The notes under the pieces were generated by a model. That model was not told the origin of the DNA and searched no databases. It saw nothing but the letters and a program-made list of their open reading frames with translations. Shown here in pieces: positions 16,850 to 62,681 of a DNA stretch of 64,000 nucleotides. The DNA is taken from NCBI GenBank assembly GCA_948144175.1, contig CANXME010000875.1:897501-961500 (forward strand), in the 5' to 3' direction. Within the stretch, counting starts at the first letter, position 1. Each line of letters opens with the position of its first letter. This DNA comes from Closterium sp. NIES-65. Its lineage: Eukaryota > Streptophyta > Zygnematophyceae > Desmidiales > Closteriaceae. The translations under genes were made by a program, and so were the position numbers.

Positions 16850-19800
16850 GGTAGTTGCGTCGAGTCAGGAGTTTGGTGCAGCGTCCACGTCTGGTCCTGA
16901 GTCTGCTCCCTGCTCGTGTCATCTTCTGCCCTACCAGACTCTCCTCTAGCACCACCGCCTTGGTCACCCCTACCTGCCTTGTCTCCGAGGCATGGCCTCC
17001 CATGTCCTTGTCTCTGGTCTCCCTCGGTCTCTCCCTCCCCTTCCTCCGGGGCCTGGCCCTACCTGGGTCCCCTGCGTCAAGGGGCGACAGCGCGCCGCCC
17101 CTCACTCCTCCGAGTTTCCTCCGACAGAGGCTCCGTTGCAGACTCTTCACATGGACGTGTGGGGCCCCGCCCGCGTTCGTGGCCAGGGGCACGAGCGTTA
17201 CTTCCTGTTGGTGGTTGACGACTTCTCGCGTTACACCAGAGTCTTGCCCTTGCGCAGCAAGGGTGACGTCACTGAGGTGTTGATCGACTAGATCTGCGCA
17301 GCTCGTCTCCAACTCAGAGAGAGTTTCGGCTCGGACTTTCCTATTCTGCGTCTGCGCTCTGACATAGGCGGGGAGTTTTCCTCTGCCCGTCTGGGAGCCT
17401 TCTGTCACGCACAGGGCATCTGCGAGACCTTCACGCTTCCGGCCTCTCCACAGCAAAATGGGATTGCTGAGCGCCGCATTGGCATGGTCATGGACGTCGC
17501 TCGTACGTCCATGATCCATGCGGCTGCCCCCCATTTTTTGTGGCCGTTTGCGGTTCAGTACGCAGCGCATTAGCTCAACCTTCAGCCCTGGGTCTCCTTG
17601 CCAGAGACCTCCCCCACCCTTCGGTGGACGGGGAAGGTTGGGGATGCGTCAGCGTTTCAGGTCTAGGGATCTCAAGCGTTTGTTCGTGACTTGTCTGCGG
17701 ACAAGCTGTCCCCGCGTGCTGTTCCTTGCATCTTCCTTGGCTTCCCCCCTGACGTGCTTGGGTGGCAGTTTTACCACCTCACCTCGCGCCGTGTTCTGTC
17801 CTCCCAAGACGTCATCTTTGACAAGTCGGTGCCTTACTACCATCTCTTCCCCTACCGCACTGCGCCTCTCCCCCCGCCGCCGCTCTTCCGTGCGCAAGGT
17901 CCTCCCCCGGTAGACCCCCTCCCCCCTCAGGGTCCTGCCCCGTCAGGTGTGTCCCAGGTAGACGCAGTCGAGCCTGTTGAGGTAGCTGTTGACTCTGGTG
18001 CTGCTAGGGGTGCTGAGCCTGCGGGTGCCGGGCTAGCAGGTGCTGAGCCTGAGGGTGCGGAGCCTGGGGGTGTTGAGTCCGGGGGTGCTGAGCCTAGGGG
18101 TGCTGAGTGTGGGGGTGCTGAGCCTGGGGGTGTGGAGCCTGGGGGTGCTGAGCCTAGGGATGCTGAGCCTGGGGGTGCGGAGCCTGGGGGTGCTGGGTCT
18201 GCTCGCGTGGCCTTTCGCGGTGCTTCGTCGAGGCGGGAGCCACTCTCTCCGCAGGAGCTGCGCGAGTGGTTTGCCCGGTGCTGGAGCCGTGGTACTGGAG
18301 CTGGAGGTATTACTCTTGCTGCTGGTCCGGGAGATGCTCGTACTGGCGGTACTGGAGCTGCTGGAGTTGGAGGTGTTGCTGGGGCTGCTAGAGTTAGTCC
18401 TGCAGGAGGTACTGCTGGAGCTGCTGGCGGTACTGGAGCTGCCGGTCCTGCTGGAGTTGGTATTGCTGGAGCTGCTGGAGCTGGAGCTGCTGGGGGTGTT
18501 GGCACTGGTGGTTCTGCTGGCGCTGGTGCGTCTGAGGGTGCTGGAGTTGGCACTGTTGGAGCTGAAGGTGCTGCTGTCGCTGGTGCTGCCGCTGGGGGTA
18601 CTGGTGCTATCCCTGCTGCATCTGCAAGCGCCGCGCGGCCAAGGCCGTACTTCGTTCCGCTCCTAGAACAGGTTCTTGGTCTCTCGCCCTCTTCTGGTCC
18701 TCCTCCTTCCTTAGAGTGTCCACAGCCTGTTTAGTTGCGGTCACAGTTAAAACCCGCCTCCCCTCTACATGCTCCTTCTCCCTACACTGGTCTTGCTGGA
18801 GGTCTTGCTGAGCGTCGTGAGCCTGCGTCGCCTGTTCGTGCAGCTCGCACTAGTCGTCGTGTTCCGCGTTCGCGTACTTCTACGGTCCGAGGCACACACC
18901 AGATGGCACTGCGTCCTTCCACTGCTCCTATGCGTGTCCCATTATCGACTCCTCTAGAGTCCCCACTTCCTATTCTTGGTGGCCTGGAGTCTGACTCTCT
19001 TCGTGCTGCCAGTCCTACTGTCACGCGTCTCCTGGCAACTGTTGTCACTCACCCTTCCTTTGAGTCCACTGCTGCGTCGGCCCTAGTTGCTGAGCTTGTC
19101 GACTTTGCTGCTCACTGTCGTCTAGACTACGCTGCCAGTCTTGTTGTTGAGTCTGAGTCTATCTGTCCTCCGTCCATCGGGGGTGAGTGTGCTCTTAGCA
19201 CGGACGTCCTTGAGGACAGGCAGGAGGAGTTCTAGTGCTTTGCTGCTGCTTTGCCTCATCTCGTGTCCACGCTGATTGCCCTTAAGGGAGACCCGGATGG
19301 ACCAGACATCCCGACTCCTCGATCGTACGCTGAGGCGATCGAGGGTCCTTACTCCTCTCAGTGGCTGTCAGCCATGGACGCAGAAATGGCTTCCTGGAAG
19401 TCCACAGGCACCTACGTCGACGAGGTTCTCCCACCTGGGGCGAACATCGTCAGTGGCATGTGGATTTTCAGGGTGAAGCGGCCGCCGGGTTCTCCACCTA
19501 TCTTCAAGGCGCGTTACGTGGCTCGAGGCTTCGGTCAGCGGCAGGGAGTTGACTACTTTCAGACCTTCTCTCCCACCCCGAAGATGACCACTCATCGGGT
19601 GCTACTGCACATAGCCGTTCAGCGCGACTACGAGCTTCACTCTCTTGACTTCAGCACAGCTTTCCTGCACGGCATCTTGCACAAGGAGATCTGGCTACGC
19701 CGCCCACCTGGCTTCACTGAGTCGTTTCCCTCTGGTACCCAGTGGAGCCTCTGTCGGCTAGTCTACGATCTCCGCCATGTGCCTCGTGAGTGGCACGACA

Positions 19801-20888
19801 CATTGAGGACTACACTTGCGGCTCTTGGGTTTGCTCCTTCTACAGCCGACCCGTCGCTGTTTCTACGCACCGACACCTCTTTGCCGCCGTTCTACATCCT
19901 CGTGTACGTCGACGACTTGGTCTTTGCCACTGCTGACACTGCTTGACTCGCCCACGTGAAGTCTAAGCTGCGGATTAGACACACGTGCACAGACCTGGGT
20001 GAACTGCGCAGCTACCTTGGCTTGCAGATCACCAGGGACAGAGCACAGCGCACCATTACCCTGACTCAGTCACACATGGTGCAGCAGGTCCTTCAGAGCT
20101 TCGACTTCACGTACTCCTCGCCTCAGGCCACTCCTCTGTCTACTCGCCACTCGCTCTCAGCTCTGCCTTTGGATGAGTCCGTAGAGCCGAGTGGCCCGTA
20201 CCCAGAGCTTGTTGGCTACCTCATGTACCTGATGACCTGCACTCGACCTGACCTTGCATACCCTCTTAGCATCTTGGCACGCTATGTTGCTCCTGGGAGA
20301 CACCGACCAGAGCACATGGCTGCAGCGAAGAGGGTGTTGCGCTACTTGTGCAGTACGTCGGGGATGGGGCTAGTGCTTGGAGGGCGACGTTGAGTGGTCC
20401 TTACAGGTCACGCAGACGCTTCTTGGGCGGACGACCAGGCTACGCAGCGGCCGTCACAGGGTTACACCTTCAGCCTTGGTTCCGGCTATGTTTCGTGGCG
20501 GTCTACCCGCTCGTCTTCTGTTCTCGGCTCCAACTGTGAGGCTGAGATCTACGCAGGGGCCATGGCTGCACAGGAGCTACGCTGGCTCACCTACCTCCTG
20601 ATTGGCCCAGGAGAGTCGCCTCGTTCTCCTCCAGTGCTGTACGTAGACAACAAGGCCATGCTGGCCTTGTGTCGGGAGCACAGATTGGAGCACAGAACGA
20701 AGCACATTGCTCTTCGCTACATCCTTGCTCGTGAGTTGCAGCAGCGTGGTCAGCTGCGCCTTGCTTACGTGGCCTCTGAGGCCAACACTGCTGATATCTT
20801 TACCAAGGCACTTCCGCCTTGTGATCATCGGCGCTTCTGTACGATGCTAGGTCTTGTGCCTACTTGGCCTCACTTGCTCACTTCTTGA
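16850..20888 (+). pseudogene. Copia B Pol: integrase, linker, RT, RNase H
   Basis: Integrase has MDVWGP (about 17150), a damaged RSDIGGEF, and PQQNGIAERR (about 17450). The GAEPGGA linker lies at about 18000-18190 and SPQELREWFAR at about 18250. RT retains LDFSTAFLHG and an intact YVDDLVF (about 19905). RNase H ends PTWPHLLTS at 20888. From 17691 to 20888 one frame is open except for stops at 18732 (TAG), 19233 (TAG), 19944 (TGA) and 20391 (TGA). Integrase has further stops. The copy is dead but recently so. Confidence 0.88.
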
Positions 20889-29429: not shown

Positions 29430-31203
29430 GGTGTTTGCTGCAGCTTCCAGGTCTGGTCCTGAGTCTGCTCCCTGCTCGTGTCGTCTGTTGTCCCACCACA
29501 CTCTCCTCTGGCACCACCGCCTTGGTCACCCCTCCCTGCCTTGTCTCCGAGGCATGGCCTCCCGAGTCCTTGTCTCTGGTCTCCCTCGGTCACTCCCTCC
29601 CCTACCTCCGGGGCCTGGCCCTACCTGCGTCCCTTGTGTCGAGGGGCGACAGCGCGCCGACCCTCACTCCTCCAAGTTTCCTCCGACAGAGGCTCCGCTG
29701 CAGACTCTCCACATGGACGTTTGAGGCCCAGCCCGCGTCAGTGGGCAGGGACGCAAGCGGTACTTCCTGCTGGTGGTTGACGACTACTCGTGTTACACCA
29801 CGGTTTTCCCCTTGCACAACAAGGGTGACGTCACTGAGGTGTTGATCGACTGGATCCGCGCAGCTCGTCTCCAACTCAGAGAGAGTTTTGGCTCGGACTT
29901 TCCTGTTCTGCGTCTGCACTCGGACAGAGGCGGGGGGTTTTCCTCTGCCCGCCTAGGAGCTTTCTGTTGTGCACAGGGCATCCGCCAGACCTTCACGCTT
30001 CCGGCCTCTCCACGGCAAAAAAAGATTGCTGAGCGCCGCATTGGCATGGTCATGGACGTCGCTCGTACGTCCATGATGCATGCGGCTGCCCCCCATTTTC
30101 TGTGGCCGTTTGCAGTTCAGTACGCCGCGCATCAGCTCAACCTTCAGCCCTGGGTCTCCATGTCAGAGACCTCCCCCGCCCTGCGGTGGACCAGGAAGGT
30201 TGGCGATGCGTCTGCGTTTCAGGTCTGGGGATCTCGGGCGTTTGTCCACGACTTGTCTGCGGACAAGCTGTCCCCGTGTGTTGTTCGTTGCGTCTTCCTT
30301 GGCTTCCCCCTTGACGCGCCTGGGTGGCAGTTTTACCACCCCACCTCGCGTCGTGTTCTGTCTTCCCAGGACGTCACCTTTGACGAGTCGGTGCCTTACT
30401 ACCGTCTCTTCCCCTACCGCACTGCGCCTCTCCCTCCGCCGCCGCTCTTCCTTGCACCAGGTCCTCCCCCAGTAGACCCCCTCCCCCTTCAAGGTCCTGC
30501 CCCGTCAAGTGTTTCCCAGGTAGACACAGTCGAGCGTGTCGAGGTAGCTGTTGACTCTGGTGCTGCTAGAGGTACGGAGCGTGGTGCTGGGTCTGGGGGT
30601 GCTGAGACTGGGGGTGTTGAGACTGGGGGTGCTGTTTCTGGGGGTGCGGAGCCTGGGGGTGCGGAGCCTGGAGGTGCGGAGCCTGGGGGTGCCGAGCTTG
30701 TGGGCGTTGGGTCTGCTCGTGTGGCCGCCGGCGGTGCTTCGTCGAGGCGGGTGCCACTCTCTCCACAGGAGCTGCGCGAGTGGTTTGCTCGCCGCTGGAG
30801 ACGTGTTGCTGAGACTGGGGGTGCTGCTGGGGCTACTGGGGTTGGTCCTGCTGGAGCTGCTGGCGGTACTAGTGCTGCTGGAGCTGGAGCTGCTGGGGGT
30901 GTGGGCGCTGGTGTTTGTACTGGCGCTGGTGTTTCTACTGGCGCTGGTGCGTCTGGGGGTGCTTCTGAGGCTGCTGGAGCTAACGGTCCTACTGGAGTCG
31001 GTGCTGCTATACCAAGTGCTGCTGGGGGTGTTGGCGCTGGTGTTGCTGCTGGCGCTAGTGCTTTTGAGGGGGCTGGAGTTGATGCTAGAGGAGCTGGAGG
31101 TGCTGCTGGCGGTGGTGCTGCCCCTAGGGGTACTAGTGCCGTCCTTGCTGGTTCACGAGGCGCTGAGCGACCGAGGCCGTACTTCGTTCCGCTCCTGGAG
31201 TAG
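29430..31203 (+). pseudogene. Copia C integrase and linker
   Basis: Pre-integrase and integrase sequence with a stop right after the first catalytic Asp (MDV then TGA at about 29722). One long ORF follows (29773-31203). Conserved SDRGGEF has become SDRGGGF and PQQNGIAER has become PRQKKIAER, so the core is dead. The GGAEPGGA repeat spans about 30590-30710 and SPQELREWFARRW about 30765. Confidence 0.85.
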
Positions 31204-31280
31204 GTTCTTGGTCTCCCGCCCTCTCCTGGTCCTGCTCCTCCCTTAGAGTGTCCACAGCCTGTCCAGTCGCAGTCACAGTT

Positions 31281-32045
31281 ACAGCCCTCCCCCCCTCTAC
31301 TCGCCACTCGTTCTCAGCTCTGCCTTTGGATGAGTCCGTAGAGCCGAGTGGCCCGTACCCAGAGCTTGTTGGCTACCTCATGTACTTGATGACCTGCACA
31401 CGACCTGACCTTGCATTCCCTCTTAGCATCTTGGCAGGCTATGTTGCTCCTAGGAGACACCGACCAGAGCACATGGCTGTAGCGAAGAGGGTGTTGCGCT
31501 ACTTGTGCAGTACGTCGGGCATGGGGCTAGTGCTTGGAGTGCGACGTCGAGTGGTCCTCACAGGTGACGCTGACGCTTCTTGGGCTGATGACCAGGCTAC
31601 GCAGCGGCCGTCACAGGGTTACACCTTCAGCCTTGGCTCCGGCTCTATTTCGTGGTGGTCTACCCGCTCGTCGTCTGCTCTCGGCTCCAGCTGTGAGGCT
31701 GAGATCTACGCGAGGGCCATGGCTGCACACGAGCTACGCTGGCTCACCTACCTGCTGACTGACCTAGGAGAGCCGCCTCGTTCTCCTCTAGTGCTGTACG
31801 TAGACAACAAGGCCATGCTGGCCTTGTGTCGGGAGCACAGACTGGAGCACAGAACGAAGCACATTGCTCTCCGCTACTTCTTGGCTCATGAGCTGCAGCA
31901 GCGTGGTCAGCTCCGCCTCACCTACGTGGCCTCTGAGGCCAACACTTCTGATATCTTCACCAAGGCCCTTCCGCCTTGTGACCATCAGCCCTTATGTACT
32001 TTGCTAGGTCTTGTGCCTACCTGGCCTCACTTGCTGACTTCTTGA
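31281..32045 (+). pseudogene. Copia C RT C-terminus and RNase H after deletion of the RT core
   Basis: The sequence jumps from the linker (about 31290, CCCTCCCCCC) directly to STRHSFSALPLDESVEPS, the thumb/connection part. Fingers and palm, including the YVDD box, are missing relative to copia B, a loss of roughly 1.4 kb. RNase H (GDADASWADD, LYVDNKAML) and the C-terminus PTWPHLLTS are intact. Confidence 0.88.
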
Positions 32046-33736: not shown

Positions 33737-35551
33737 ATGGCTACTCCTGGCGTTCTCACCTTTGATGCTGAGGGTCGGACTGTCGACTTTGATGTCTGGG
33801 TCGATGATCTGCAACTGTTCCTGCAGTGCGATAGGAAAGACGGTCTCTCACAATTCAATCTCACGTCTACCGCCTCTCCTGCCCCTACTGCCGATGCTGA
33901 CAGCACTGTTTGCTCACAGTGGGCCACACGCGATGCTGCTGCCCGTCTTGCTGTGCGTAGTCACTTGCCGTCCGCTGAGCGCGCGCACTTTAATCAGTAC
34001 AAGAGCACTAAGACCTTGTACGACGCTGTAGTTGCAACTACTCTTCCCTTGCCACTGCTGCCCTTAGCCGCCTCATGCTATCGTACCTGTTCCCTGACCT
34101 CGCCGCCTTTCCCACTGTCGCTGACCTCATTACGCACCTTTGCACTAGTGCCACCCGCTACCGCGCTGCGCTTCCTGCTGAATTCTGCGTCAGGAACCCC
34201 CCCCCCCCCCCCATGTACATCACCCTCTACTACATAGTCACCCGGCTCCCTGACTCCCTTCGTTGGGTCAGGGACCACTTCCTCTCTGTTTGCCCCACCA
34301 CACTCACCGTTGACCTCCTCAAGGAGCGCCTCCTAGCAGCTGAGAAGAGTATAGTTGCTGTAGGAGCCTCTCAAGGTGACCCTCGTACCCCCTTCTTTGA
34401 GGGGTGCTCCCCCTCCCCACTTTTGCCCTCTGTTGCCTCTGCTGCTGCCGTCGACTTCGTTGGCACTGAGTCGGTCGGCGCTGCGTGTGCCCCTAGCGGG
34501 AGATGCCATACCAGCAAGGGCAAGAGGGGCAAGGGCGCTGGAGGGGCTGGCGGGGGCGGTGGAGGTGGCGGTGGAGGCGATGGAGGGAGTGGGGGTGGCG
34601 GTGGGAGTGGTGGCGGGGGTGGGGGCTTCGGTGGCAGCGGTGGAGGCGGAGGCGGCGGCAGCGGTGGCGGTGGGAGCAGAGGAGGAGGCGGTGGCGACGG
34701 TGGCGGAGGTGGCGGCGGCGGAGGTGGAGCTAGTCGGGGTGGCTCTGCGCAGCGGGGCGGTTCCGGTGGCGGTCAGTGCCAGCAGCAGCAGCGCACTCGT
34801 GAGACCCCGCCCCCCAAGCAGCTTCGTGAGTGGTACGATTCGCGTCAGCGGGGTGGGGGTGCTGGTCCTGGAGCCTTGCGGTGGTCCGCACGCCACCCAG
34901 CGCTGCTTCGGCCGCTAGACAGACGCTTGGCGTCTCTAGTTCCTTGACGCCACTGAGATCCCCTGCTGGGGCGAGCTGCTTAGGTCCGGGGTTGCTATCT
35001 TTGATCTGGATTATGATGCTATTCTTGCTGCCATGTATGTTGTGTCTACTAGTGATGAGGGTGACTATTACCTGTGTGTTCCGCATGACCCGGGCATTGA
35101 GACTGGTGCTCTGGGTGCTGGTGAGGCTGTTGCTCTAGGTGCTAGTGCGTCTGCTACCCCAGGTGCTGGTGAGTCTGCTCTCTCAAGTACCACGTCGGCT
35201 CAGGCCTTCCACACCTTCACCCTTGACTGGGGTGCTTCTCGTTCCTTCTTTCGAGACCACATCACGCTTACGCCGCTTAGTCGGCCAGTTGCGGTCTCCC
35301 TGGCGGACCCCTCTGGGGGTCCTGTCCTTGCCCACTTCTCCACTGTCTTACCGTGTTCGGCGGCCCCCTCTGGCACCCTGTCAAGTCTCTACCTCCCCTC
35401 GTTCTCTACGAACTTGGTGAGTGGTGCTAATCTACAGGATGGGGGGGTTGACCAGCTCACTCCTGCGAGTCAGCGGGTGACCCACTGTACGTGTGCTCGG
35501 ATGGGCCGACACTTGGCCACGTTTACCCGTCAGCCGAGGTCGAGCCTGTAG
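33737..35551 (+). pseudogene. Copia E Gag and protease
   Basis: Starts MATPGVLTFDAEGR. A two-base loss near 34035 shifts frame. The next ORF (34075-34947) reads through a 16-base C run in phase into a poly-Gly tract and PPKQLREWYDSRQRGG. The later ORF (35033-35551) has the Ala/Gly repeats and a protease core LDWGASRSFFRD, in which the Ser next to the catalytic Asp is Trp. Confidence 0.85.
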
Positions 35552-36887: not shown

Positions 36888-38617
36888 ACAGAGGCTCCAA
36901 TGCAGACTCTTCACATGGACGTGTGGGGCCCTGCCCGCATCCGTGGCCAGGGTTATGAGCGTTACTTCCTGTTGGTGGTTGACGACTACTCGCGTTACAT
37001 CACGGTTTTCCCCTTGCGCAGCAAGGGTGACGTCACTGAGCTGTTGATCGACTGGATCCGCGCAGCTCGTCTCTAGCTCAGAGAGAGTTTCGGCTCGGAC
37101 TTTCCTGTTCTGCGTCTGCACTCGAACAGAGGCGGAGAGTTTTCCTCTGGCCTTCTGGGAGCCTTCCGTCGTGCACAGGGCATCCGGCAGACGTTCACGC
37201 TTTCGGCCTCTCCACAGCAAAATGGGATTGCTGAGCGTCGCATTGGCATGGTCATGGATGTTGCTCGTACGTCCATGATTCATGCGGCTTCCCCCCATTT
37301 TCTGTGGCCGTTCGCGGTTCCGTACGTGGCGCATCTGATCAACCTTCAGCCCCGAGTCTCCTTGCGGAAGACGTCCCCTACTCTGCGGTGGACAGGGAAG
37401 GTTGGCGGTGAGTCTGCGTTTCGTGTCTGGGGATCTCGGGCTTTTGTCCGCGACTTGTCTGCGGACAAGCTGTCCCCCCGTGCTGTTCCCTGCGTCTTCC
37501 TTGGCTTCCCCCCTGATGCGCCTGGTTGGCAGTTTTACCACCCCACCTTGCGCCGTGTTCTGTCCTCCCAGGATGTCACGTTTGATGAGTCGGTTCCTTA
37601 CTACCGTCTCTTCCCCTACCGCACTTCGCCCCTCCCCCCGCCGCCGCTCTTCCTCGCACCAGTTCCCCCCCCGGTAGACCCCCTTCCCCCTCAGGGTCCC
37701 GCCCCCTCGGGTGTGTCCCAGGTAGATGCAGTCGAGCCTCTCGAGGTAGCTGATCACTCTGGTGCTCCTCGGGGTGCTGAGCCTGCAGGTGCGGGGCCTG
37801 GGGGTGCTGAAACTGGAGGTGCTGGGTCTGGGGGTGCTTAGCCTGGGGGTGTGGAGCCTGACGGTGCTGGGCCTACTCGTGTGGAGTCTGGCGGTGCTGG
37901 GTCTAGGGGTCCCTCGGGTGCTTCATCCAAGCGGGAGCTCCCCTCTCCTCAGGAGTTGCGCGAGTGGTTTGCTTGGCGCTGGAGCCGTGCTGGTGGCGCT
38001 TGCGATTCTGCTGCTACTGAGGGTGTTGGTGCCACGGGTTCCGGAGGTGCTCGTACTGGAGGTACTGGAGCTGCTGGGCGTGGTGTAAGGAGCTCTTGGT
38101 GGTGCTGGAGCTGCTGGTGGAGCTTCTAGAGAAGGTGCTGCTGGAGGTGCTGGAGAAGGTGCTGCTGGAGGTGCTGGAGCTGTGGCTGTTGAGTCTTCTG
38201 GTGGTCCGGCTAGAGCTAGAGCTGCTCGGGGTGTTGGCGCTGGAGGTGCTGCTGGCGCTGGTGCTTCTGAGGGTGCTGGGGTTGGCGGTGCTGCAGCAAG
38301 GGGTACTACTGGTGCTGGTGCTGCCGCTGGGGGTGATGGTGCAGTCTCTGCTGGCTCTGGAGGCGCTGCGCGGCCACGGCCGTACTTCGTTCCGCTCCTT
38401 GAGCAGGTTCTTCGTCTCCCGCCTCTGCTGGTCCTGCTCCTTCCTTAGAGTGTCCGCCACTTGTCCAGTCTTAGTCGCAGTTACAGCCCGCCTCCCCACT
38501 GCCTGCTCCCTCTACCTACACCGGTCCTACTGGAGGTCTTGCTGAGCGTCATGCGCCTGCGTCTCATCCTGCATCGCCTATTCGTGCTGCTTGCTCTCAT
38601 AGTCGTGATCCGCGTCC
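36888..38617 (+). pseudogene. Copia E integrase and linker
   Basis: LQTLHMDVWGP and LVVDDYSRY are present, then a TAG at 37075. The second catalytic Asp is changed (HSNRGGEF instead of HSDRGGEF), while PQQNGIAERR is kept. The linker carries GGAEPGGA-type repeats (about 37760-37880) and SPQELREWFAWRW. The reading breaks at 38617 where F inserted. Confidence 0.87.
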
Positions 38618-39047
38618 TGTCACAGAATTCACCGAGGGAAGTTGCAATTCATTCTGTTAACGCTAATAAGGTGCAATGTGATGCGCTGTAGCATATGGAG
38701 CAGGGTGTAGAATGTTATTTGAATTGTAAGCAGGTTGGTGGGCAGCAAGGGGAGTGACGCGAAGTTGGTGGCCTAGGGACCAGCGAGGCGCGCAAGAAGT
38801 GAACCCAAGAGCCTCGAGCAACTAGGAAATCACTCTGGCCAATACCAAGCTGGGGCGGCCCGAACTCAACCAGAACTCAGAGACATGGGCGACTTGGCCG
38901 AGGGTAGATTTATAGCCTAGAGAAATATCACTCGATTAGTTCTCTCGTTTGTTTACTCTCTATAGTGGATGAAGTTGCTGCTCTAAGCTTTCTAAGCCAG
39001 GTGACGAGGCCACTCAGACTAGCCAAGTGTGGGGGACAGATTCCTCA
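38618..39047 (+). repeat. 5' LTR of F (430 bp)
   Basis: Starts TGTCACAGAATTCACCG and ends GATTCCTCA. The next bases (caaacgagagaag) do not resemble the Met-tRNA site used by the copia elements, so the primer tRNA is unknown. Confidence 0.9.
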
Positions 39048-39071
39048 CAAACGAGAGAAGAAACGCGCAGT

Positions 39072-41729
39072 ATGGACTGCGACAAGCATCGATGGGCTAG
39101 GACCTACAGTCGACGGGGTCCTGAAGTGCAGCGGAGAATGCGCTCACGAGAGCGCGGGAGATCGCCAGTACGCTCGCCGCGTACGGAAGCATACCGCGCG
39201 GATCGGGTAATGCTTGTAAGGAATCGGCGCGCGGAAGGTGAGCCTGGACGTTTTGCGGAGTCAGTTCCCAGATCACTAACCACGCGAAGCGATCCTTGGA
39301 ATCTGCCGAGTCGCAGCGAGGGCGTCCAGCGCCTCGAGGAGGCTGATGTGCGCGACCAGTTAGAGTCGTCAAGCGAGGACGACGGGGTCGACGATGACGA
39401 TGTCCCAATTGCGCGGGACGGCGTGAAGGAACCTGAGGAGGGAGAGGCCGTGGATGCGGAGGAGCATGAGGACGGAGAAATGGGCCAGAAGGGAGAAGGG
39501 ACGGAGCGCGACGCGATGGATCCAGCACGTGAGAACGGAGGAGAGCCTCGCGCGCGCGCGGAAGCAGATCGCTTTTCAGTCGGACGTGGTGAAGGTGTCC
39601 GCCACCAGCGCGAGCAGGCAGGGGCGTACTGTTCGCCTGACCCGCGTGAAAGGTACGGGAGGAGGAGACGAAGGGCGATGGGCATGCGAAGGTCGCCAGA
39701 GCCGTATGAGGAAGGGGATCACCATGAGAGAGATGCGCGAAGCGAACGAGAAAAGGGGGGAAGGTCGCGCGCGGACGCGGATGATCGACAGCAGAGAGGA
39801 GATGAGCATCGTGAGGAGAGGAGAGGATTATCGCGAGGAAAGTCAGAGGCAGAAAAGACACCTGAGGATGGGGTAAGAAGGAGGAAAGAAGAGGAGGAAC
39901 AAACATATGAGAGGCGGCGCCAGGAACGAGAAATCGAGACTGAGTCTGAGAGCGAAGAGGAGTATGACCGGGCCCGTCGCATGTATGGTAAGCAAAACCA
40001 GCGCAAGAACGGAGAATCACCTGAGGCAAGGGGTCAACGCAAGGAAAGGCGAGAAGAGAGCCGCGCGAAGGCCAGCGAGAAGCGTAGCCCGTGCCCGAGA
40101 TGGCAGGGAAGGTCTGAGCGTGTGAGGGAAGGCTCGAGGGGAGCAAGAGCTGCGAGGGAAGGCATAGAGCGTGCGTTGTACGGAGGGAGCACAAAGAGCA
40201 AGCGATCAGGAGCAAGGGGCAGGGAGTACGGCCATCCGGCAGGAGAGGAGTCAGGGACGTGGGAGACGGGGAGATGGAGTGCGGCAGCAATGCCACGGGT
40301 GGAAGTGCCGGTGAGGTTCACAGGAGGCATAGGAACAGGGAGCAACCTGAGGAACTACCTTATGCAGATAGGTAACGTGAAGTACCGCTGTGACCGTAGC
40401 GGAATGGACCCGATCGAGTTCTTCTTAAGTTTGCCTAACACCTTGGGAGGGGAGGCAGAGACGCTGTACCGCATGAAAATGAAGGAGTGGCTGAGAAGGG
40501 CGGAGGAGGATGATGAGGACCCCACGATATTGTTCCTGGAGCGCCTTCGGAAGCAGTTCCCGGGGCATACGACGGAAAGGATTAGGGAGTTTCAGGAGTT
40601 CAGACGGGGGAAAACAAAGTCACTGTTTACCTATTACGGGAGATTGATGAACCTGGCAGAAGATGTCGTATGCACGGACAGCAGCATGCTCATAAGTAAG
40701 TTCCTGGGGGGACTGGACAAGGGGTTGAGCGGGGGGCTGAGAATGCGAGTCTATGAGCTAGGGGCGGAGGCCACACTAGAGGAGGTGTTTGAGCTGGCGG
40801 AAAAGGTGGAACTGGTGCAGCGGCGGTATGAGGCCTACCTGCCAAAAGCGGCAGAAGAAAGAAAACCTACCTGGGCAGCAGCAATGATACCCGAAGAGGG
40901 GACAAGGGAGGAGAATCGGCAGGAGAGAAGGGTGGACACCCGCACCTGCCACAGGTGTGGGCAACAAGGGCATGTAAAGAGGGACTGCAAGAATTGTGAC
41001 ACATGTGGCAAGCCTGGGCACCGCCGGAGGGAATGCCCGGACGCGCCCAAGTGTGAGGTGTGTGGGAAACAGGGACATCAGGCAAAGGACTGCTATCAAA
41101 GGACAGGTGGGCCAAAGAGGTCATCCGAGGACATAGAGAAGCAGATTGGTAGGCTGCAGGCACAGTTGCGGGACATGGGAGGGAAGAAGGAGAGGGAGGC
41201 GGGAATGTATGCAAGAGAGGAGGAAGAAGATGGGGAGGAGGAGGAGCAAAAACTGGAGTGGTCATTTGCGGTGCTGCGGAGCAGAGAGGAGTTAGGGTTA
41301 CGAAGCGGAGGGATGGACGAACGCAAAGAGCAGGTGATGAAGGAACGCCGCAGACCTGAGCAGAAGATAGCAAGGACAGAGGGGCAGGCAGGGACAGCCC
41401 ACCGCCACCCCAAGGACAGACTGGCCAGCCAGACGACAGTGTTGGTAGTTGAAGCAGGGGCCGTAACAGTAGGGGGAGAACGAGTGGGAACAACAATCAT
41501 AGATACAGGGGCACAAAGCGTGATGCTGGGAAGGAAGATAGCACAAAAGCTGGGACTGACAGGGCCAGGCCAGTACGTTAAAAAGGGGATGCTGGTGATG
41601 ACAGCAGAGGGAGGGGCCGAAGTGGATGCCAAGCACAAAAACACCTGTGGAGATAGTGCTGCTGCCAGGACAAGAAGGGGAGACAAGGATCAAGGTGCAG
41701 TGCGGCATCTCGGACTCAGAAGATTTTGA
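39072..41729 (+). CDS. F Gag and start of protease
   Basis: The ATG at 39072 is preferred because the upstream ATG at 39027 lies inside the LTR. About 400 residues of Arg/Glu/Asp/Ser-rich, probably disordered sequence come first. The Gag core follows (about 40300-40860, FTGGIGTGSNLRNYL, LERLRKQFPGH). Three CX2CX4HX4C zinc knuckles (CHRCGQQGHVKRDC, CDTCGKPGHRRREC, CEVCGKQGHQAKDC) lie at about 40945-41095, and the protease active site IIDTGAQS at 41502. Homology moves to the next frame near 41626, inside the protease, so the last 34 codons are out of frame. That is a one-base change: a +1 shift signal, or more simply a lesion in this copy. Confidence 0.9.
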   Translation: MDCDKHRWARTYSRRGPEVQRRMRSRERGRSPVRSPRTEAYRADRVMLVRNRRAEGEPGRFAESVPRSLTTRSDPWNLPSRSEGVQRLEEADVRDQLESSSEDDGVDDDDVPIARDGVKEPEEGEAVDAEEHEDGEMGQKGEGTERDAMDPARENGGEPRARAEADRFSVGRGEGVRHQREQAGAYCSPDPRERYGRRRRRAMGMRRSPEPYEEGDHHERDARSEREKGGRSRADADDRQQRGDEHREERRGLSRGKSEAEKTPEDGVRRRKEEEEQTYERRRQEREIETESESEEEYDRARRMYGKQNQRKNGESPEARGQRKERREESRAKASEKRSPCPRWQGRSERVREGSRGARAAREGIERALYGGSTKSKRSGARGREYGHPAGEESGTWETGRWSAAAMPRVEVPVRFTGGIGTGSNLRNYLMQIGNVKYRCDRSGMDPIEFFLSLPNTLGGEAETLYRMKMKEWLRRAEEDDEDPTILFLERLRKQFPGHTTERIREFQEFRRGKTKSLFTYYGRLMNLAEDVVCTDSSMLISKFLGGLDKGLSGGLRMRVYELGAEATLEEVFELAEKVELVQRRYEAYLPKAAEERKPTWAAAMIPEEGTREENRQERRVDTRTCHRCGQQGHVKRDCKNCDTCGKPGHRRRECPDAPKCEVCGKQGHQAKDCYQRTGGPKRSSEDIEKQIGRLQAQLRDMGGKKEREAGMYAREEEEDGEEEEQKLEWSFAVLRSREELGLRSGGMDERKEQVMKERRRPEQKIARTEGQAGTAHRHPKDRLASQTTVLVVEAGAVTVGGERVGTTIIDTGAQSVMLGRKIAQKLGLTGPGQYVKKGMLVMTAEGGAEVDAKHKNTCGDSAAARTRRGDKDQGAVRHLGLRRF

Positions 41730-44700
41730 TGTGCTGCTGGGAACCGACTTAGTGTACAAGGTAGGAATGACGATATGCACCTGGAAAGAGCAAGTGGAGT
41801 TCAGGAGGCAGTACTGGAATAAGCAGAGTGAGTTGGGTGAGTTGCCTGTGCGGTTCGTGAAGCAGGAGCCGAGAAGGGCGTATACTGCAGGACAGGGAGG
41901 TGAGGAAGGAGCAGAGCTGATTGGCACAGGGAACAGGAGGAGTAACTGGCTGCAGCCGATAAGGATGGTGGAACTGTTTGGGGGGATAGGAGCAGGATTG
42001 GCAGCAGTAGTAAAAGCAGGGGTTGCAGTCAAAGAGTGGATATATGTGGAGAAGGATACACAAGTGCGGAAGATGGCGGAGAACCACGCGAAGAAGCTGC
42101 AGGAAGAGTATCCAGAGCTGTTGGGAGAAGAAGTGATAGAGCGGGCCATGCGTGGGATGGTGAGAGATGTGAGACACATAACACGAGATATGGTGCACAG
42201 CTGGGGGCACGTGGACCTACTGGTGGCAGGGTGGGAGTGCCAGGGGGTATCGAGAGCAGGGAAGGGAAAAGGCATGGAGGATCCTAGGGGGGCACTGCTG
42301 TTAGACCTGCTGCGCATTATGGACTGGATAAAGGAAGGATAGGGGGAAGTAACATACCTACTGGAGCACTTGGACCTGGAAGGGGACTTGAGAGAGCCCG
42401 TGAGAAGGGTGAGGGAACTGGTGACAAAGCGGTTGGGAAAGGGAGTCCGATGTGATGCAGCAAGGCTGGGGGCACGAGCGCACCGGGTAAGGCGCTATTG
42501 GCAGAACGTAGTACTGGAAGACCAGTTGCAGGAGGAGCTAGATGGGGTAAAGCGGTCATGGGGCAGGACAGTGAAGGATATACTGGAGGTGGGGAGGATG
42601 GCGGCACCAGTGAAGAAGGGCAGACACGAGACACAGTGTCCGTGTAACAAGGTGGGGGAGGAGCGAAGGGCGTGGCCAACTCTGGTGGCCTTTGAGGGAG
42701 CAGCGGGATTCAGAATGGAGAATGGCGAGGCAGGGGAAGGGATGGTGTACGACCACCGAACGAAGCAGTAGGAAGAACCAACAGCGCTTCAGCGAGAGCT
42801 GGCGATGGGGTACGGAGAGGACATAACACGGGCGGAGGGAGTCACAGAGCAAGAAAGGCGCAGCGCGCTGGGAAGGGCAATGGATGGACAGGTAATGCTG
42901 TGGCTGACGCGCAGGATGTGGAGGGGACTGGTCTGGGACAGCACCCAAAGACAGGAGGAGGCAAGGGAAGTAGCAGAGAAGATGGGGGCATGGGCATGCA
43001 TGCCAGCAGAAGCAAAGGAAGCAGAATGGGAGGTGGGAGATGCAATGAGCCCTGACGGAAGGAAGGCACTGCAGGCGGTGCTGGCCAGGTTCTGCCATGC
43101 CTTCGCCTTCACCTTGGAGGAATTAGGGAAATGCACCGTTAAGGAGATAGAGCTGAAATTAATGACGGAGGAACCGGTGTTCCAGAGGAAGCGGCGGATG
43201 ACGCCAGGGGACGCGGATATCTGCAAGGAAAAATGCAAGGAGTTAGTAGAGGCGAGACTGATTCAGCGATCCGAGTCCGAGTATGCCGCGCCGACCGTGA
43301 TAGCGGCTAGGAAGGACCTGACGGGGGAGATACTGAGCAGGCGCATGTGCGGGGACTACAGAGCGCTTAACAAGGTGACTGTGCCAGATCGCTACCCCAT
43401 GCCAGCTGCGGAGGAGATCTTTGACAAGCTGGGGGCAGGAGAGATATTCAGCACGCTAGACTTAAGGCAGAGCTTCAATCAGATTCGGATTAGGAAGGAG
43501 GACGTGCGCAAGACCGCGTTTCATGGAGCGGACGGATTGTACGAATGGCTATTCATGCCTTTCGGGCTGAGGAACGCTTCAGCAATCTTCCAGAGGGTTA
43601 TGGACAGCGTGCTGCGGAGCCTGGACTGTGCCGCCTGTTACATAGATGACGTAGTCATCTTTAGCAGGACAGAAGAAGAGCACGTCAGGGACGTGGATCG
43701 AACGCTAGAAGCGCTAGTAGTAGCGGGACTCACCTGCCACCCAAAGAAATGCAGCTGGGGAGAGGCAACGGTGCGCTACCTGGGCTATGAGGTGCGGGGC
43801 GGACAAATAGGGATACAGAAAGCGAAAGTGGAGGTGTTAGACCGACTACAGCAGCCGAGAGACAGGACAGGACTCAGGGCAGTGTTAGGCTTCCTAAACT
43901 ACTACCGACGTTTCGTGCCCAGCTTCAGTAAGCGGGCAGCAGCACTCAACGGCTTGCCACGTGAGGATAGGAAGTGGGATTGGGGGACAGAGCAGCAGGA
44001 GGCACTGAAGGACCTCATGGAAGCAGTAAAAACAGGGACCATACTGCAGCTGCCTCAAGCGGACAAGCCATTCTGCTTGTACACTGACTGGAGCAGCCTG
44101 GGCATGGGGGCGGTGCTATGTCAGGAAGTAGATGGGGAGGAAAGGGTGGTGGCATATGCGAGCAGAAGATGCAGTCCAGCGGAGGCGAAGTATAGCTCTT
44201 ACCATGGGGAGGGTCTCGCAGCCGTGTGGGCAGTAGGACACTTCCGGGTTTACCTGCAGGGGAGGGAATTCACCCTGGTGACAGATCACCAGCTGCTGCA
44301 GTGGTTGATGACACACTAGGGTCACACAGGGAGGAATGCGAGATGGGCAGTAAAACTGCAAGAATATGACTTCAAGATTCGGCATAGGCCGGGGAAGACA
44401 CTCCAGCATGTGGACGGGCTTTCCAGAAACCCGCCGCCGCCAGCACCAGAGCACACGCTGATCCTATTTGTAAGGGCAGGAGAAGTAGCGGCAGCAGAGA
44501 AGCAGAAAGGGCCAAGGGATGTTTGGGAGGATGCAGCAGCAATGCGACGGGTCAAGGGGGAAACGGAAGCAGACGAGCAGGTGCAAGAGCGAGCAAGGGC
44601 AAGGGGTGTTCACTACAGGTGGTACCAGCAGCAACTGCAAATACAGACGGAAGACGGCTGGAAACTGGTACCTGCACCAGAGGACAGGGAGGGGCTGATC

Positions 44701-45825
44701 AGGGAGGTACACAACAAGCTGGGCCATTTCGGGCATGAGAGGACTATGCAGCTGCTGAAAACTGGCTGGTGGTGGGAAGGGATGAGGAAACAGGTGAAAG
44801 AATGGGTGAGCGGGTGCGAGGGTTGTCAGCGAAGCAGGGCCAGTCTGGTCCAAACAAAGCAGGAGTTGCAGTCATTGCCGATACGTGGGCTGGGGTTCAG
44901 GTGGTCATTGGACTTGGCAGGAGAGCTGCCGCTGAGCAGGGGAGGTCAGCAGTACATCCTACTCATGGTGGAATATGCAAGCAAATGGTTGGAGGTGCGC
45001 GCTATTCCCAGCAAGAGCTCGAAGCATGTGGCAAAGGCCTTCAAGGAGCAAGTGCTATGCCGGTTTGGAGCACCAGGGGAGGTCTTGACAGACCAAGGGA
45101 GTGAATTCAGAGGGGAGTTCCAGGCATTGTTGGACCAGGCACGCGTCACGCACCGGAGGACTTCTCGGTATCATCCTCAAAGTGATGGACTCACAGAGCG
45201 GCTGGTGCAGACCTTGAAGCGGAATCTGCGGGCATACGGGGAGAAGCGGAAGAGAGACTGGGATGAGGAACTGTATTGGATTGCAGCAGGATACAGGTTC
45301 GGGAGGCAGGCATCGCTGAGGGATCACTCGCCGTATAGCCTACTGTTTGGGCGAGAGCCAGTGCTGCCAGTGGGGGCACCGCGGGTGTTAACCGACCCGG
45401 TGAGCGTGCAGGGAACAGAGAAGTGGGTAGCACTGGCGGAAGCAAGAGCACGCTACATGAAAGAGATGCTACCAGCCGCACTCGAGAACCTGCACACAGC
45501 ACAGTTGCGGGATGCACTGAGGTACCAGCAGCGGCAGCACAAGGGAGGAGGAAAGGGGAAGGAAGCAGTGGCGGAGGGACAAGAGGTTTATTTGAAGCGG
45601 GCCAAGCAGGATACCCTGGACGTGGGACTAGGAACCGTAAGGTGGAAGGTGAAAGCAGTACGCGACTTAGGGGTGCTGGTACTAGAGAACGAGAAGGGGG
45701 AACAGACAGTGGACCACCAGACCAATGCAGCGGTGGTGAGGAGCAGCCGGCCTCAGCTGGATGGTCCTGTGACTCGGGCCCGTGCAGCACGAGCACGAGT
45801 ACAGGAGGGGGCAGGGAGTGGCTGA
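41626..45825 (+). pseudogene. F Pol: protease end, methyltransferase, RT, RNase H, integrase
   Basis: One frame runs throughout, broken only by TAG at 42340, 42769 and 44317. It begins with the protease end FDVLLGTDLV, then the methyltransferase (41968-42906). RT follows with RMCGDYRALNKVT, LDLRQSFNQI and YIDDVVIF (43639), then RNase H (LYTDWSSLGMGAVL, about 44080) and the H2C2 finger HNKLGHFGHERTM..CEGCQ. Integrase has Asp in DLAGELPL, Asp in LTDQGSEF and Glu in GLTERLVQTLKR. Polymerase and integrase catalytic residues are all intact. The three TAGs look like recent point mutations. Confidence 0.9.
41968..42906 (+). CDS. DNMT3/DRM-like C5-cytosine methyltransferase domain inside F Pol
   Basis: This entry marks the domain within the Pol frame, about 313 codons. 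Motif I (SAM binding) is VELFGGIGAGLAAVV at 41968. Motif IV is VDLLVAGWECQGVS, with the presumed catalytic Cys at 42238. Motif VI is TYLLEHLDL (about 42352), and the target-recognition side carries AHRVRRYWQNV (motif VIII, about 42478), as in DNMT3/DRM enzymes (AHRxRYFWGN). The C-terminal helix ALGRAMDGQVMLWL (about 42868) matches the LLGRxWSVPV region. Motif order is the ordinary one, not the circularly permuted DRM order. The Pro of the PC dipeptide is Glu, and motif VI ENV is EHL. Two TAGs fall within the domain, the second exactly where a conserved Trp is expected. Confidence 0.85.
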
Positions 45826-45895
45826 GAGAGGCACAAGAGAGAAGATGGGTAAGGAACAGAAGAGGAGAAGGTAATGGGGCAAAAGTTGGAGCACG

Positions 45896-45926
45896 GAGAC
45901 AAGTAAGGGAGGGGATTCACGACAGC
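45896..45926 (+). repeat. 30-bp repeat B1 with polypurine tract before the 3' LTR of F
   Basis: Contains AAGTAAGGGAGGGGATT, a plausible plus-strand primer, but 12 bases separate it from the LTR TG. The same 30 bases recur after the LTR. Confidence 0.85.
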
Positions 45927-46356
45927 TGTCACATAATTCACCGAGGGAAGTTGCAATTCATTCTGTTAACACTCATAAGGTGCAATGTGATGCGCTGTAG
46001 CATATGGAGCAGGGTGTAGAATGTTATTTGACTTGTAAGCAGGTTGGTGGGCAGCAGGGGGAGTGACGCGAAGTTGGTGGCCTAAGGACCAGCGAGGCGC
46101 GCAAGAATTGAACCCAAGAGCCTCGAGCAACTAGGAAATCACTCTGGCCAATACCAAGCTGGAGCGGCCCGAACTCAACCAGAACTCAGAGACATGGGCG
46201 ACTTGGCCGAGCGTAGATTTATAGCCTAGAGAAATATCACTCGATTAGTTCTCTCGTTTGTTTACTCTCTATAGTGGATGAAGTTGCTGCTCTAAGCTTT
46301 CTAAGCCAGGTGATGAGGCCACTCAGAGTAGCCAAGTGTGGGGGACGGATTCCTCA
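45927..46356 (+). repeat. 3' LTR of F (430 bp)
   Basis: Same length as the 5' LTR with few differences, starting TGTCACATAATTCACCG and ending GATTCCTCA. Confidence 0.92.
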
Positions 46357-46364
46357 AGAGCAGA

Positions 46365-46394
46365 GAGACAAGTAAGGGAGGGGATTCACGACAG
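46365..46394 (+). repeat. 30-bp repeat B2 after the 3' LTR of F
   Basis: Identical to 45896-45925. It is followed directly by copia E sequence and the target repeat. No copy precedes the 5' LTR. Confidence 0.88.
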
Positions 46395-46403
46395 TCCGCG
46401 TCC

Positions 46404-59068: not shown

Positions 59069-61033
59069 TCAAGAAGTGAACAAGTGAGGCCAAGTAGGCA
59101 CAAGACCTAGCAAAGTACAGAAGCGCTGATGATCACAAGGCGGAAGGGCCTTGGTGAATATATCAGCAGTGTTGGCCTCAGAGGCCACGTAGGTGAGGCG
59201 GAGCTGACCACGCTGCTGCAGCTCACGAGCCAGGAAGTAGCGGAGAGCAATGTGCTTCATTCTATGCTCCAGTCTGTGCTCCCGACACAAGGCCAGCATG
59301 GCCTTGTTGTCTATGTACAGAACTGGAGGAGAACGAGGCGCCTCTCCTAGGTCAGTCAGCAGGTAGGTGAGCCAGTGTAGCTCTTGAGCAGCCATGGCCC
59401 CTGCGTAGATCTCAGCCTCACAGCTGGAGCTGAGAACAGAAAACGAGCGGGTAGACCGCCACGACTGAAGGTGTAACCCTGTGACGACTGCTGCAGAGCC
59501 TGGTCATCAGCCCAAGAAGCGTCAGCCTGACCTATGAGGACCACTTGACGTCGCCCTCCAAGCACTAGTCCCATGCCCGACGTACAGCACACGTAGCACA
59601 ACACCCTCTTCGCTACATCCATGTGCTCTGGTCTGTCTCCCAGGAGCAACATAGCGTGCCAAGATGCTAAGAGGGTATGCAAGGTCAAGTCGTGTGCAAT
59701 TCATCAGGTACATGAGGCAGCCAACAAGCTCTGGGTACGGGCTAGTCGACTCTACGGACTCATCCGAAGGTAGAGCTGAGAGCGAGTGGCGATAAGACAG
59801 AGGAGTGGCCTGAGGCGAGGAGTACGTGAAGCCGAAGCGCTGAAGGACCCGCTGCACCATGTGTGACTGAGTCAGGGTAATGGTGCGCTGTGCTCTGTCC
59901 CGGGTGATCTGCAAGCCAAGGTAGCTGCGCAGCTCACCCAGGTCTGTGCACGTGTGTCTCTTCTGCAGCTCAGACTTCACGTGGGCGAGTCCAGTAGTGT
60001 AAGCAGTGGCAAAGACCAAGTCGTTGACGTACACAAGGATGTAGAACAGCGGCAAAGAGGTGTCGGTGCACAGAAACAGCGACAGGTCGGCTGTAGAAGG
60101 AGCAAACCCAAGAGCCGCAAGTGTAGTCCTCAGTGTGTCGTACCACTCACGGGGCGCCTGGCGGAGACCGTAGACTGGCCGCCGGAGGCTCCACTGGGTA
60201 TCAGGGGGAAACGACCCAGTGAAGCCAGGAGGGCGGCGCAGCCAGATCTCACCGTGCACGCTGCCCTGCGGGAAAGGTGTGCTGAAGTCAAGAGAGTGAA
60301 GCTCGTAGTCACGCTTAGCAGCTATGTGCAGAAGTACCCGAATAGTGGTCATCTTCGGGGAGGGAGAGAAGGTCTGAAAGTAGTCAACTCCCTGCCCTTG
60401 ACTGAAGCCTCTAGCCACGTAATGCGCCTTGAAGACAGGCGGAGAACCCGGCGGCCGCTTCACCCTGAAAATCCAGATGCCACCGACGATGTTCGCCCCA
60501 GGTGGGGGAACCTCGTCGACGTAGGTGCTTGTGGACTTCCACGAAGCCATCTCTGCGTCCATGGCTGACTGCCACTGAAAGGAGTAGGGACCCTCGATCG
60601 CCTCAGCGTACGATCAAGGAGTCGGGATGTCTGGTGCATCCGGGTCTCCCTCAGGGGCAATCAGTGTGGACACGAGATGGGGCAAAGCAGCCGCAAAGCA
60701 CAGGAACTCCTCCTGCCTGTCCTCAAGGACGTCCATGCTAAGAGCATACTCACCCCCGACGGACGGAGGACAGACAGACTCAGACTCAGCAACTAGAATG
60801 GTAGCATAGTCTAGACGGCAGCGAGTAGCGAAGTCGACAAGCTCAGCAACTAGAGCAGACGCAGCAGTGGACTCAAAGGAAGGGTCAGTGACAACAGTAG
60901 CAAGAAGGCGTGTGACCAAAGGACTAGCAGCATGAAGGGAGTCAGACTCCGGGTCAGCAAGAGAAGGAAGAGAGGACTTTGGAGGAGATGGCAACGAGAC
61001 ACGAAGAGGAGCACTGGAAGGACGCAGTGCCAT
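59069..61033 (-). pseudogene. Copia G RT and RNase H
   Basis: One frame covers MALRPSSAP, AMDAEMASWKSTST..., LDFSTPFPQG and the polymerase box, here YVNDLVF instead of YVDDLVF (about 60035). It breaks near 59520-59690, then RNase H resumes (AAQELHWLTYLLTDLG, LYIDNKAML) to PTWPHLFTS at 59069. The Asp to Asn change alone should abolish polymerase activity. Confidence 0.9.
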
Positions 61034-62681
61034 CTAGTGTGTGCCGGGGACCGCAGGAGGACGCGGACGCGCAGCACAACGTCTAGTGCGAGCAGCACAA
61101 ACAGGCGACGCAGGACGAGACGCAGGCTCACGACGCTTAGCGAGACCTCCAGTAGGACCAGTGTAGGGAGAAGGAGCAGGTAGCGGGGAGGCAGGCTGTA
61201 ACTGTGACTGCGACTGGTCGGCTGTGGGCACTCTAAGGGAGGAGGAAGACCAGGAGAGGGCGGGAGACCAAGAACCTGCTCTAGGAGCGGAACGAAGTAC
61301 GGCCTCAGCCGCTCAGCGCCTCCAGAACTAGATAGGACGGCGCCTGTAACCCCACCGGCAGCACCAGCGCCAGCAGCACCTCCAGCTCCAAGAGCGCCAA
61401 TTCCAGCACCCTCAGAAGCACCAGCGCCAGCAGCATTGCCAGCGCTAACACCCCCAGCAGCTCCAGCTCCAGCAGCACCCACTCCAGTAGGACCGTCAGC
61501 ACCAGCAGCACCCGCAGACGCACCAGCACTTGTAGAAACACCAGCGCCAACACCCCCTGCAACTCCACCTCCAGCAGCACCAGCACCACCAGCAGCTCTA
61601 GCAGGACCAACTCTAGGAGCTCTAGCAGCACCCCCTGTCTCAGTAGCACGTCTCCAGCGGCCGGCAAACCACTCACGCAGCTCCTATATAGAGAGCGGCT
61701 CCTGCCTCGACGAAGCACCGCCAGCGGCCACACGAGCAGACCCAGCACCCCCAGGCTCCGCACCCCAAGGCTCAGCACCCCCAGTCTCAGCACCCCCAGA
61801 CCAAGCACCCGCAGGCTCAGCACCTCTAGCAGCACCAGAGTCAACAGCTACCTTGACAGGCTCGACTGCGTCTACCTCGGACACACCTGACGGGGCAGGA
61901 CCCTGAGGGGGGAGGGGTTCTATCTGGGGAGGACCTGGCGCAAGGAAGAGCGGCGGCAGGGGGAGGGGCGCAGTGCGGTAGGGGAAGAGACGGTAGTAAG
62001 GCACCGACTCTTCAAAGGTGACGTCCTGGGAGGACAGAACACGCCGCGAGGAGGGGTGGTAAAACTGCCACCCAGGCGCGTCAGAGGGGAAGCCAAGGAA
62101 GACGCAGGGAATTGCACGGAGGGACAGCTTGTCCGCAGACAAGTCGCGGACAAACGCCCGAGATCCCCAGACCCGAAACGCAGACGCATCGCCAACCTTC
62201 CCTGTCCACCCCAAGGCGGGGGAGGTCTCTAGCAAGGAGACCCGGGGCTAAAGGTTGAGCTGATGCGCGGCGTACTGAACTGCAAACGGCCACAGAATAT
62301 GGGGGCAGCCGCATGCATCATGGATGTACGAGCGACGTCCATGACCATGCCAATGCGGCGCTCAGCAATCCCATTTTGCTGTGGAGTGGCTGGAAGCGTG
62401 AAGGTCTGGCGGCTGCCCTGTGCACGACAGAAGGCTCCCAGACGGGCAGAGGAAAACTCCCCGCCTCTGTCCGAGTGCAGACGCAGAACAGGAAAGTTCG
62501 AGCCGAAACTCTCTCTGAGCTCGAGACGAGCTGCGCGGATCCAATCGATCAACACCTCAGTGACGTCACCCTTTCTGCGCAAGGGGAAGACTGTGGTGTA
62601 ACGTGAGTAGTCGTCAACCACCAGCAGAAAGTACCGCTCTCGCCCCTGCCCACTGACGCGGGCTGGGCCCCACACGTCCAT
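61034..62681 (-). pseudogene. Copia G integrase and linker
   Basis: MDVWGPARVSGQG, HSDRGGEFSS and PQQNGIAERRIG keep all three catalytic residues in one frame (62229-62681). A frame change follows near 62230, then the capsid-like block VFRVWGSRAFVRDLSADKL and the GAEPGGA linker, and another change near 61230 before RT. Confidence 0.88.

Follow-up and report, generated by a model that had tools for sequence, protein, structure and literature searches.

A broken member of a selected Ty3/gypsy retrotransposon family in Closterium sp. NIES-65, carrying a DNMT3-type methyltransferase domain with an altered motif IV

We found that a 64,000-nucleotide stretch of the Closterium sp. NIES-65 genome (contig CANXME010000875.1, positions 897,501 to 961,500; hereafter the window, in which all positions are counted) contains a broken copy of a Ty3/gypsy retrotransposon. 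The family to which it belongs is large, old and still under selection, and its members carry a DNMT3-type cytosine-C5 methyltransferase domain inside their Pol polyprotein. The anatomy of the element, its gene order, the many copies of the family, the purifying selection on the domain and the 4-bp target-site duplications were directly observed. The captured domain probably acts on the element's own complementary DNA (cDNA), most simply by methylating it. The principle of a methyltransferase-bearing gypsy element is already published, and the preliminary description of this DNA was right that the kind had been reported from Klebsormidium (PMC5890265; de Mendoza et al. 2018). What is new here are the relatives in Closterium, liverworts and Sphagnum, the exact element ends with their 4-bp duplication, a recurrent B-GC-A junction between two split repeats (A and B) and the loss of the proline beside the catalytic cysteine. 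The interest of the family rests on this Glu-Cys change under selection and on the bryophyte relatives.

The element occupies 38618..46393 (7,776 bp, + strand, as do all of its features), has TG...CA ends and is nested within a copia element. Gag, with CCHC knuckles (best 40941-40994), runs from 39072 to 41729 and continues into the first half of an aspartic protease (PF13650, 41463-41612), beyond which the protease is out of frame; its second half and a linker (41602..41952) lie in the Pol frame, which is frameshifted relative to gag. These are followed by the methyltransferase (41953..42921, delimited by alignment and a model), the reverse transcriptase (RT; RVT_1, 43342..43794, 8.4e-30), RNase H (43981..44313; RT_RNaseH_2 and RT_RNaseH, 4.3e-30 and 7.4e-28) and a DDE integrase (44680..45177; H2C2 zinc-binding domain and rve core, 5.1e-18 and 2e-13). 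The profile matches thus give the gypsy order protease, methyltransferase, RT, RNase H and integrase, and agree with the preliminary description, in which the protease and the RT were separated by a C5 methyltransferase. It had also put the methyltransferase in one Pol frame with RT, RNase H and integrase; the frame is indeed common to methyltransferase, RT and integrase, but it is broken by three in-frame TAG codons, two within the methyltransferase (42340..42342 and 42769..42771) and one close to the end of RNase H (44317..44319). As gag and the first half of the protease lie in another frame and three TAGs interrupt the Pol frame, the window copy is dead and its protein cannot be made. The nearest protein, P0002 from Closterium sp. 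NIES-65 (97%), has Gln and Trp, respectively, at the positions of the two methyltransferase stops, so the TAGs look like mutations, and reassignment of TAG as a sense codon was rejected. Neither the stops nor the frameshift were noted in the preliminary description, and the same is true of the motif IV sequence and the split repeats described below.

The landmarks named in the preliminary description as a complete methyltransferase set are all present in the translation of 41968-42906 (LFGGIGAGL, the motif IV Cys, the motif VI Glu, AHRVRRYWQN and LGRAMDG). However, motif IV (42235..42240, catalytic Cys codon 42238-42240) reads W-E-C-Q-G, with Glu-Cys in place of the canonical Pro-Cys. A profile search of the translated region matched PF00145 over the first half of the domain (1.1e-8; 35.4 bits, with the cut-off at 22), and the segment between the two methyltransferase stops, searched alone, gave no Pfam match. 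The domain has the DNMT3 fold, with motifs running unrearranged from I to X. It matched DNMT3A most strongly (1.4e-21), followed by structure 4onj, which we take to be a plant DRM (6.7e-11), and DRM2 (2.8e-7). These weaker matches and the motif order led us to reject a DRM-type enzyme, as DRM methyltransferases are defined by motifs VI-X ahead of I-V (PMC2965745). The Closterium domain is about 22% identical to animal DNMT3A/3B, from which it also differs in having Glu-Cys instead of Pro-Cys and in lying inside a retroelement polyprotein.

A profile search of the 874 Mb genome, in which all copy counts are lower bounds, returned at least 123 scored matches to PF00145, and at least 21 of these (counted from the match table) lay within open frames of at least 1,500 codons without a stop. 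Forty stretches, hand-picked from the 123 with long open frames favoured, were fetched and checked together with the window as members of the methyltransferase-gypsy family, the others being counted by their PF00145 match; some copies may stem from a single locus represented by more than one contig. All 20 genomic stretches searched for gag, methyltransferase, RT and integrase contained the four in this order, so that the window is not the only copy with the domain between gag and RT. The domain was open over at least 290 residues in 29 of the 41 copies, the 40 fetched having been partly picked for open frames. The system had been described as rare, which does not hold given the number of PF00145 matches, with 40 fetched stretches and the window belonging to this family, and given the relatives in liverworts and Sphagnum.

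The methyltransferase was found to be about as constrained as the RT. The median ratio of nonsynonymous to synonymous substitution rates (dN/dS) was 0.086 for the methyltransferase (range 0.053-0.34; 34 pairs from 29 copies with dS of 0.03-1) and 0.101 for the RT (range 0.035-0.727, the maximum coming from one pair; 49 pairs from 32 copies). Stops, short matches or missing matches removed 12 of 41 copies for the methyltransferase and 9 of 41 for the RT. The pairs left out numbered 14 with dS ≤ 0.03 and 358 with dS ≥ 1 for the methyltransferase (saturated pairs being 358 of 406), and 12 and 435, respectively, for the RT. Distances between copies in the methyltransferase and in the RT correlated at 0.972 (Mantel r; 25 copies, 0 of 999 permutations as high), which indicates that the two have travelled together.

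The catalytic Cys of motif IV and the catalytic Glu of motif VI (codon 42364..42366 in the window) were each kept in 36 of 36 aligned rows, and the motif VIII Arg in 33 of 36; the motif VI Asn was replaced by His in 7 of 36. The residue before the catalytic Cys was Glu in 28 and Asp in one of the 29 Closterium proteins with the motif (the window's own counted), and among the 41 genomic copies, window included, it was Glu in 40 and Val in one (L084). The Closterium family thus lacks the proline of DNMT3 enzymes that is described as invariant and as contacting the target base (PMC2965745). Since the domain is under purifying selection, the substitution beside the Cys belongs to a selected protein. 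Among 104 further relatives scanned, 60 had motif IV, with Pro in 56, Ala in one and Glu in three, the last being all three of the eukprot-only rows. A quick tree, in which long branches were flagged, placed 18 Closterium rows on one side of a branch with an SH-aLRT (Shimodaira-Hasegawa-like approximate likelihood ratio test) value of 100 and required at least 3 changes in motif IV, a number obtained with the motif IV column left in.

We consider it the most probable course of events that the protease would free the methyltransferase together with the RT inside the particle, where the freed domain would act on the newly made cDNA; in the simplest reading, cytosine methylation may then leave the cDNA tolerated or protected before the integrase inserts it. 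For DIRS elements, cDNA methylation was put forward in 2018, and the SymbioDIRS Dnmt3 of Symbiodinium, which belongs to a retroelement of another class, performed de novo CG methylation in yeast (PMC5890265). Several observations weigh against methylation of the cDNA. The Glu-Cys site itself counts against it, and rice DRM3, which has the Cys and lacks the Pro, is predicted to be inactive (PMC2965745). The Klebsormidium gypsy enzyme produced no methylation in yeast, a result which its authors judged inconclusive (PMC5890265). Some annotated relatives are missing parts of the domain, motif IV in the case of P0010 and P0011. The observed/expected CpG ratio of the element (0.71) was close to that of the whole window (0.69), and a special CpG composition of the element was rejected on these values. 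It should also be noted that the dN/dS values come from open domains only, that the pairs are non-independent and that some copies may be assembly duplicates.

More tentatively, the domain could be a conserved non-canonical Glu-Cys C5 methyltransferase under RT-like constraint whose chemistry or substrate (for example an RNA:DNA hybrid or single-stranded cDNA) has changed, or which has a non-catalytic role, in a DDE element that keeps its joined ends as a template. Rather less likely than retained methylation is an explanation in which catalysis has been lost or much reduced and selection maintains the domain for binding DNA or proteins, contacting the cDNA, the integration complex or the host methylation machinery in the manner of the helpers DRM3 and DNMT3L. 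The replacement of Pro by Glu or Asp throughout the Closterium proteins, the Glu of all but one of the 41 genomic copies and the His in motif VI of 7 of 36 rows fit such a loss, and the catalytically mutated DRM3 and Dnmt3L, which did lose the Pro-Cys pair and share the loss of the invariant proline with the Closterium domain, provide a precedent (PMC2965745). However, DRM3 and DNMT3L carry further catalytic losses, whereas the Closterium domain keeps its Cys and Glu, and a part used for binding only would be expected to lose these and the motif VIII Arg. As the Cys and Glu are kept, we rank retained methylation above a helper role. It is improbable that the domain works in trans, whether against rival elements, as the preliminary description had proposed with the nearby copia sequences as substrates, or on the genome of its host: the many genomic copies and general plausibility speak for this, but the near-equal CpG ratios of element and window gave no substrate signal and no support for the copia sequences, and the methylome of Klebsormidium nitens, whose genome harbours a comparable element, resembles that of land plants (PMC5890265). 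The broken window copy might suggest a passenger sequence without function, a reading with next to no probability, as it is contradicted by the dN/dS of about 0.09 and by a neutral simulation to 60% identity in which 0 of 500 domains were stop-free, against 29 of 41 copies with an open domain.

The ends of the element are formed by split repeats. Repeat A1 (38618..39047) makes up the left end, and the right end consists of the purine-rich repeat B1 (45889..45924, ending CGACA), a GC spacer (45925..45926), repeat A2 (45927..46356) and repeat B2 (46358..46393), giving the layout A-coding-B-A-B. A1 and A2 are identical in 419 of 431 aligned columns (97%), and the short repeat B, whose two copies agree at 35 of 37 positions, flanks A2 closely on both sides and occurs nowhere else in the window. 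An ordinary pair of long terminal repeats (LTRs) was ruled out by the B repeats; the element shares with canonical LTR retrotransposons the TG...CA ends and a short target duplication, and lacks their two full-length direct terminal repeats.

We examined the ends in 21 stretches (20 genomic and the window), allowing up to 2 mismatches over 20 positions at the A1 start and up to 1 over 16 at the B2 end. The exact string ACAGCTGTC, which in the window lies at the B1-A2 junction, was found in the right half of 14 of the 21 stretches; GACAGCTGTC is palindromic. Both ends were found in eight copies, the window and seven others, and all eight have the A-coding-B-A-B layout and TG...CA ends. Each is bordered by an exact 4-bp duplication (TATA, TGAC, TGAA, ACGC, AGTT, CTGG, ACCG and, in the window, GTCC at 38614..38617 and 46394..46397), a match expected by chance in about 1 in 256 per copy. 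Of the other 13 stretches, 7 do not show the exact junction string within range, and 6 have it but one or both of their outer ends were missed. Once one GTCC is removed, the flanks of the window copy can be aligned with three further copia copies of the window, and no gap falls at the junction. A duplication of 8-10 bp (TCCGCGTC), our first reading from the window only, was abandoned, as the eight copies gave TG...CA and 4 bp and as the empty-site alignment of the 8-bp version needed 6-7 gap positions, compared with none at the junction for the 4-bp version. By eye there was no TGG for a tRNA primer site straight after A1, and tRNA and Rfam scans gave no match.

The B1-GC-A2 junction would represent a fusion of the two ends of the element, the right one being followed by the left one after a spacer of two bases. 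Such a junction (CGACA-GC-TGTC) would carry the end sequences for the integrase back to back in the interior of the element, safe from loss in transcription, and may serve as the template from which the termini are regenerated. Internal joined ends of this type are also proposed for split-repeat elements of the DIRS order. Integration of the Closterium element, by contrast, produces a target duplication of the kind made by DDE integrases, and the element is thus distinct from DIRS elements, which have a tyrosine recombinase and no target duplication. The exact ends and the B-GC-A junction offer a concrete structure for how split-repeat gypsy elements copy their ends.

The element most closely resembles KnitGypsy-Dnmt3 of K. 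nitens, likened here by its published description, as no row named K. nitens was among the relatives recovered. The two share the gypsy domains and their order, a DNMT3-type domain inside the Pol open reading frame, non-rearranged motifs, DIRS-like repeats (A-coding-B-A-B in Closterium) and purifying selection, with a published Ka/Ks below 0.2 (PMC5890265). They differ in host, Klebsormidium as against Zygnematophyceae and bryophytes, and in that the key residues of the Klebsormidium enzyme are conserved according to the text of that paper, whereas Closterium has Glu-Cys; target duplications of the Klebsormidium element and the exact place of its domain in Pol do not appear in the text consulted. 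SymbioDIRS-Dnmt3 likewise has a DNMT3 domain in one open reading frame with RT and A-coding-B-A-B repeats, but its tyrosine recombinase places it in another retrotransposon class than the DDE-integrase element of Closterium (PMC5890265).

In total, 45 Closterium proteins were recovered (all 27 hits of a first search, and 18 among 21 additional hits of a second). A wider search for relatives yielded 107 rows, including 5 from Marchantia, 1 from Calypogeia, 3 from Sphagnum, 3 found only in eukprot and many environmental rows of unknown host. The protease, judged by motif positions, precedes the methyltransferase in all 11 relatives showing both, and the methyltransferase precedes the RT in 13 of 16. 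The other three are the eukprot rows P0130, P0139 and P0149, which have Glu-Cys in motif IV and the methyltransferase after the RT; two of them read RT-RNase H-methyltransferase (P0139 also with integrase afterwards) and the third has RT before methyltransferase. This wide spread suggests that the capture may predate any single Klebsormidium lineage. Scans of IMG/VR and GTDB gave either no match or distant ones (27-33% identity where more than 100 residues aligned), and an origin from viruses or bacteria was rejected. P0034, from a 2.4-kb contig of a Candidatus Obscuribacterales metagenome-assembled genome, groups with the retroelement enzymes and is probably a stray eukaryotic contig, that is, contamination. 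A separate environmental clade of 13 tree rows (including P0071, P0072, P0073, P0079, P0091, P0098, P0102 and P0103) was also seen, many rows of which read WPCQGMSM or similar in motif IV.

The streptophyte report is repeated in PMC12344493, and such transposons are stated to be absent from land plants such as tracheophytes in PMC6338049. Five Marchantia methyltransferases in three classes are given in PMC5784723, in the relevant passages of which none is described as a retroelement, and those of PMC6453930 likewise mention no retroelement methyltransferase. Titles and abstract openings in the open-access literature reported no such elements in Closterium, liverworts or Sphagnum, which is no proof of absence. 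The discussion of these elements in PMC5890265 leaves unanswered why a parasite of a methylation-silenced genome should carry a methyltransferase. Many copies in one alga, long open frames, RT-like constraint, a lineage-wide active-site change and relatives in Marchantia and Sphagnum make this question testable in tractable hosts.

The window is also crowded with related copia elements, at 218-2473 (-), 17353-20749 (+), 29915-31906 (+), 59208-62479 (-) and 36.9-38.6 kb with 46.4-48.0 kb (+), the last being the one in which the gypsy element is nested; their longest aligned pieces are 77-93% identical. Direct repeats rich in GGN codons, with 9- and 12-base steps, were found at 34518-34772.
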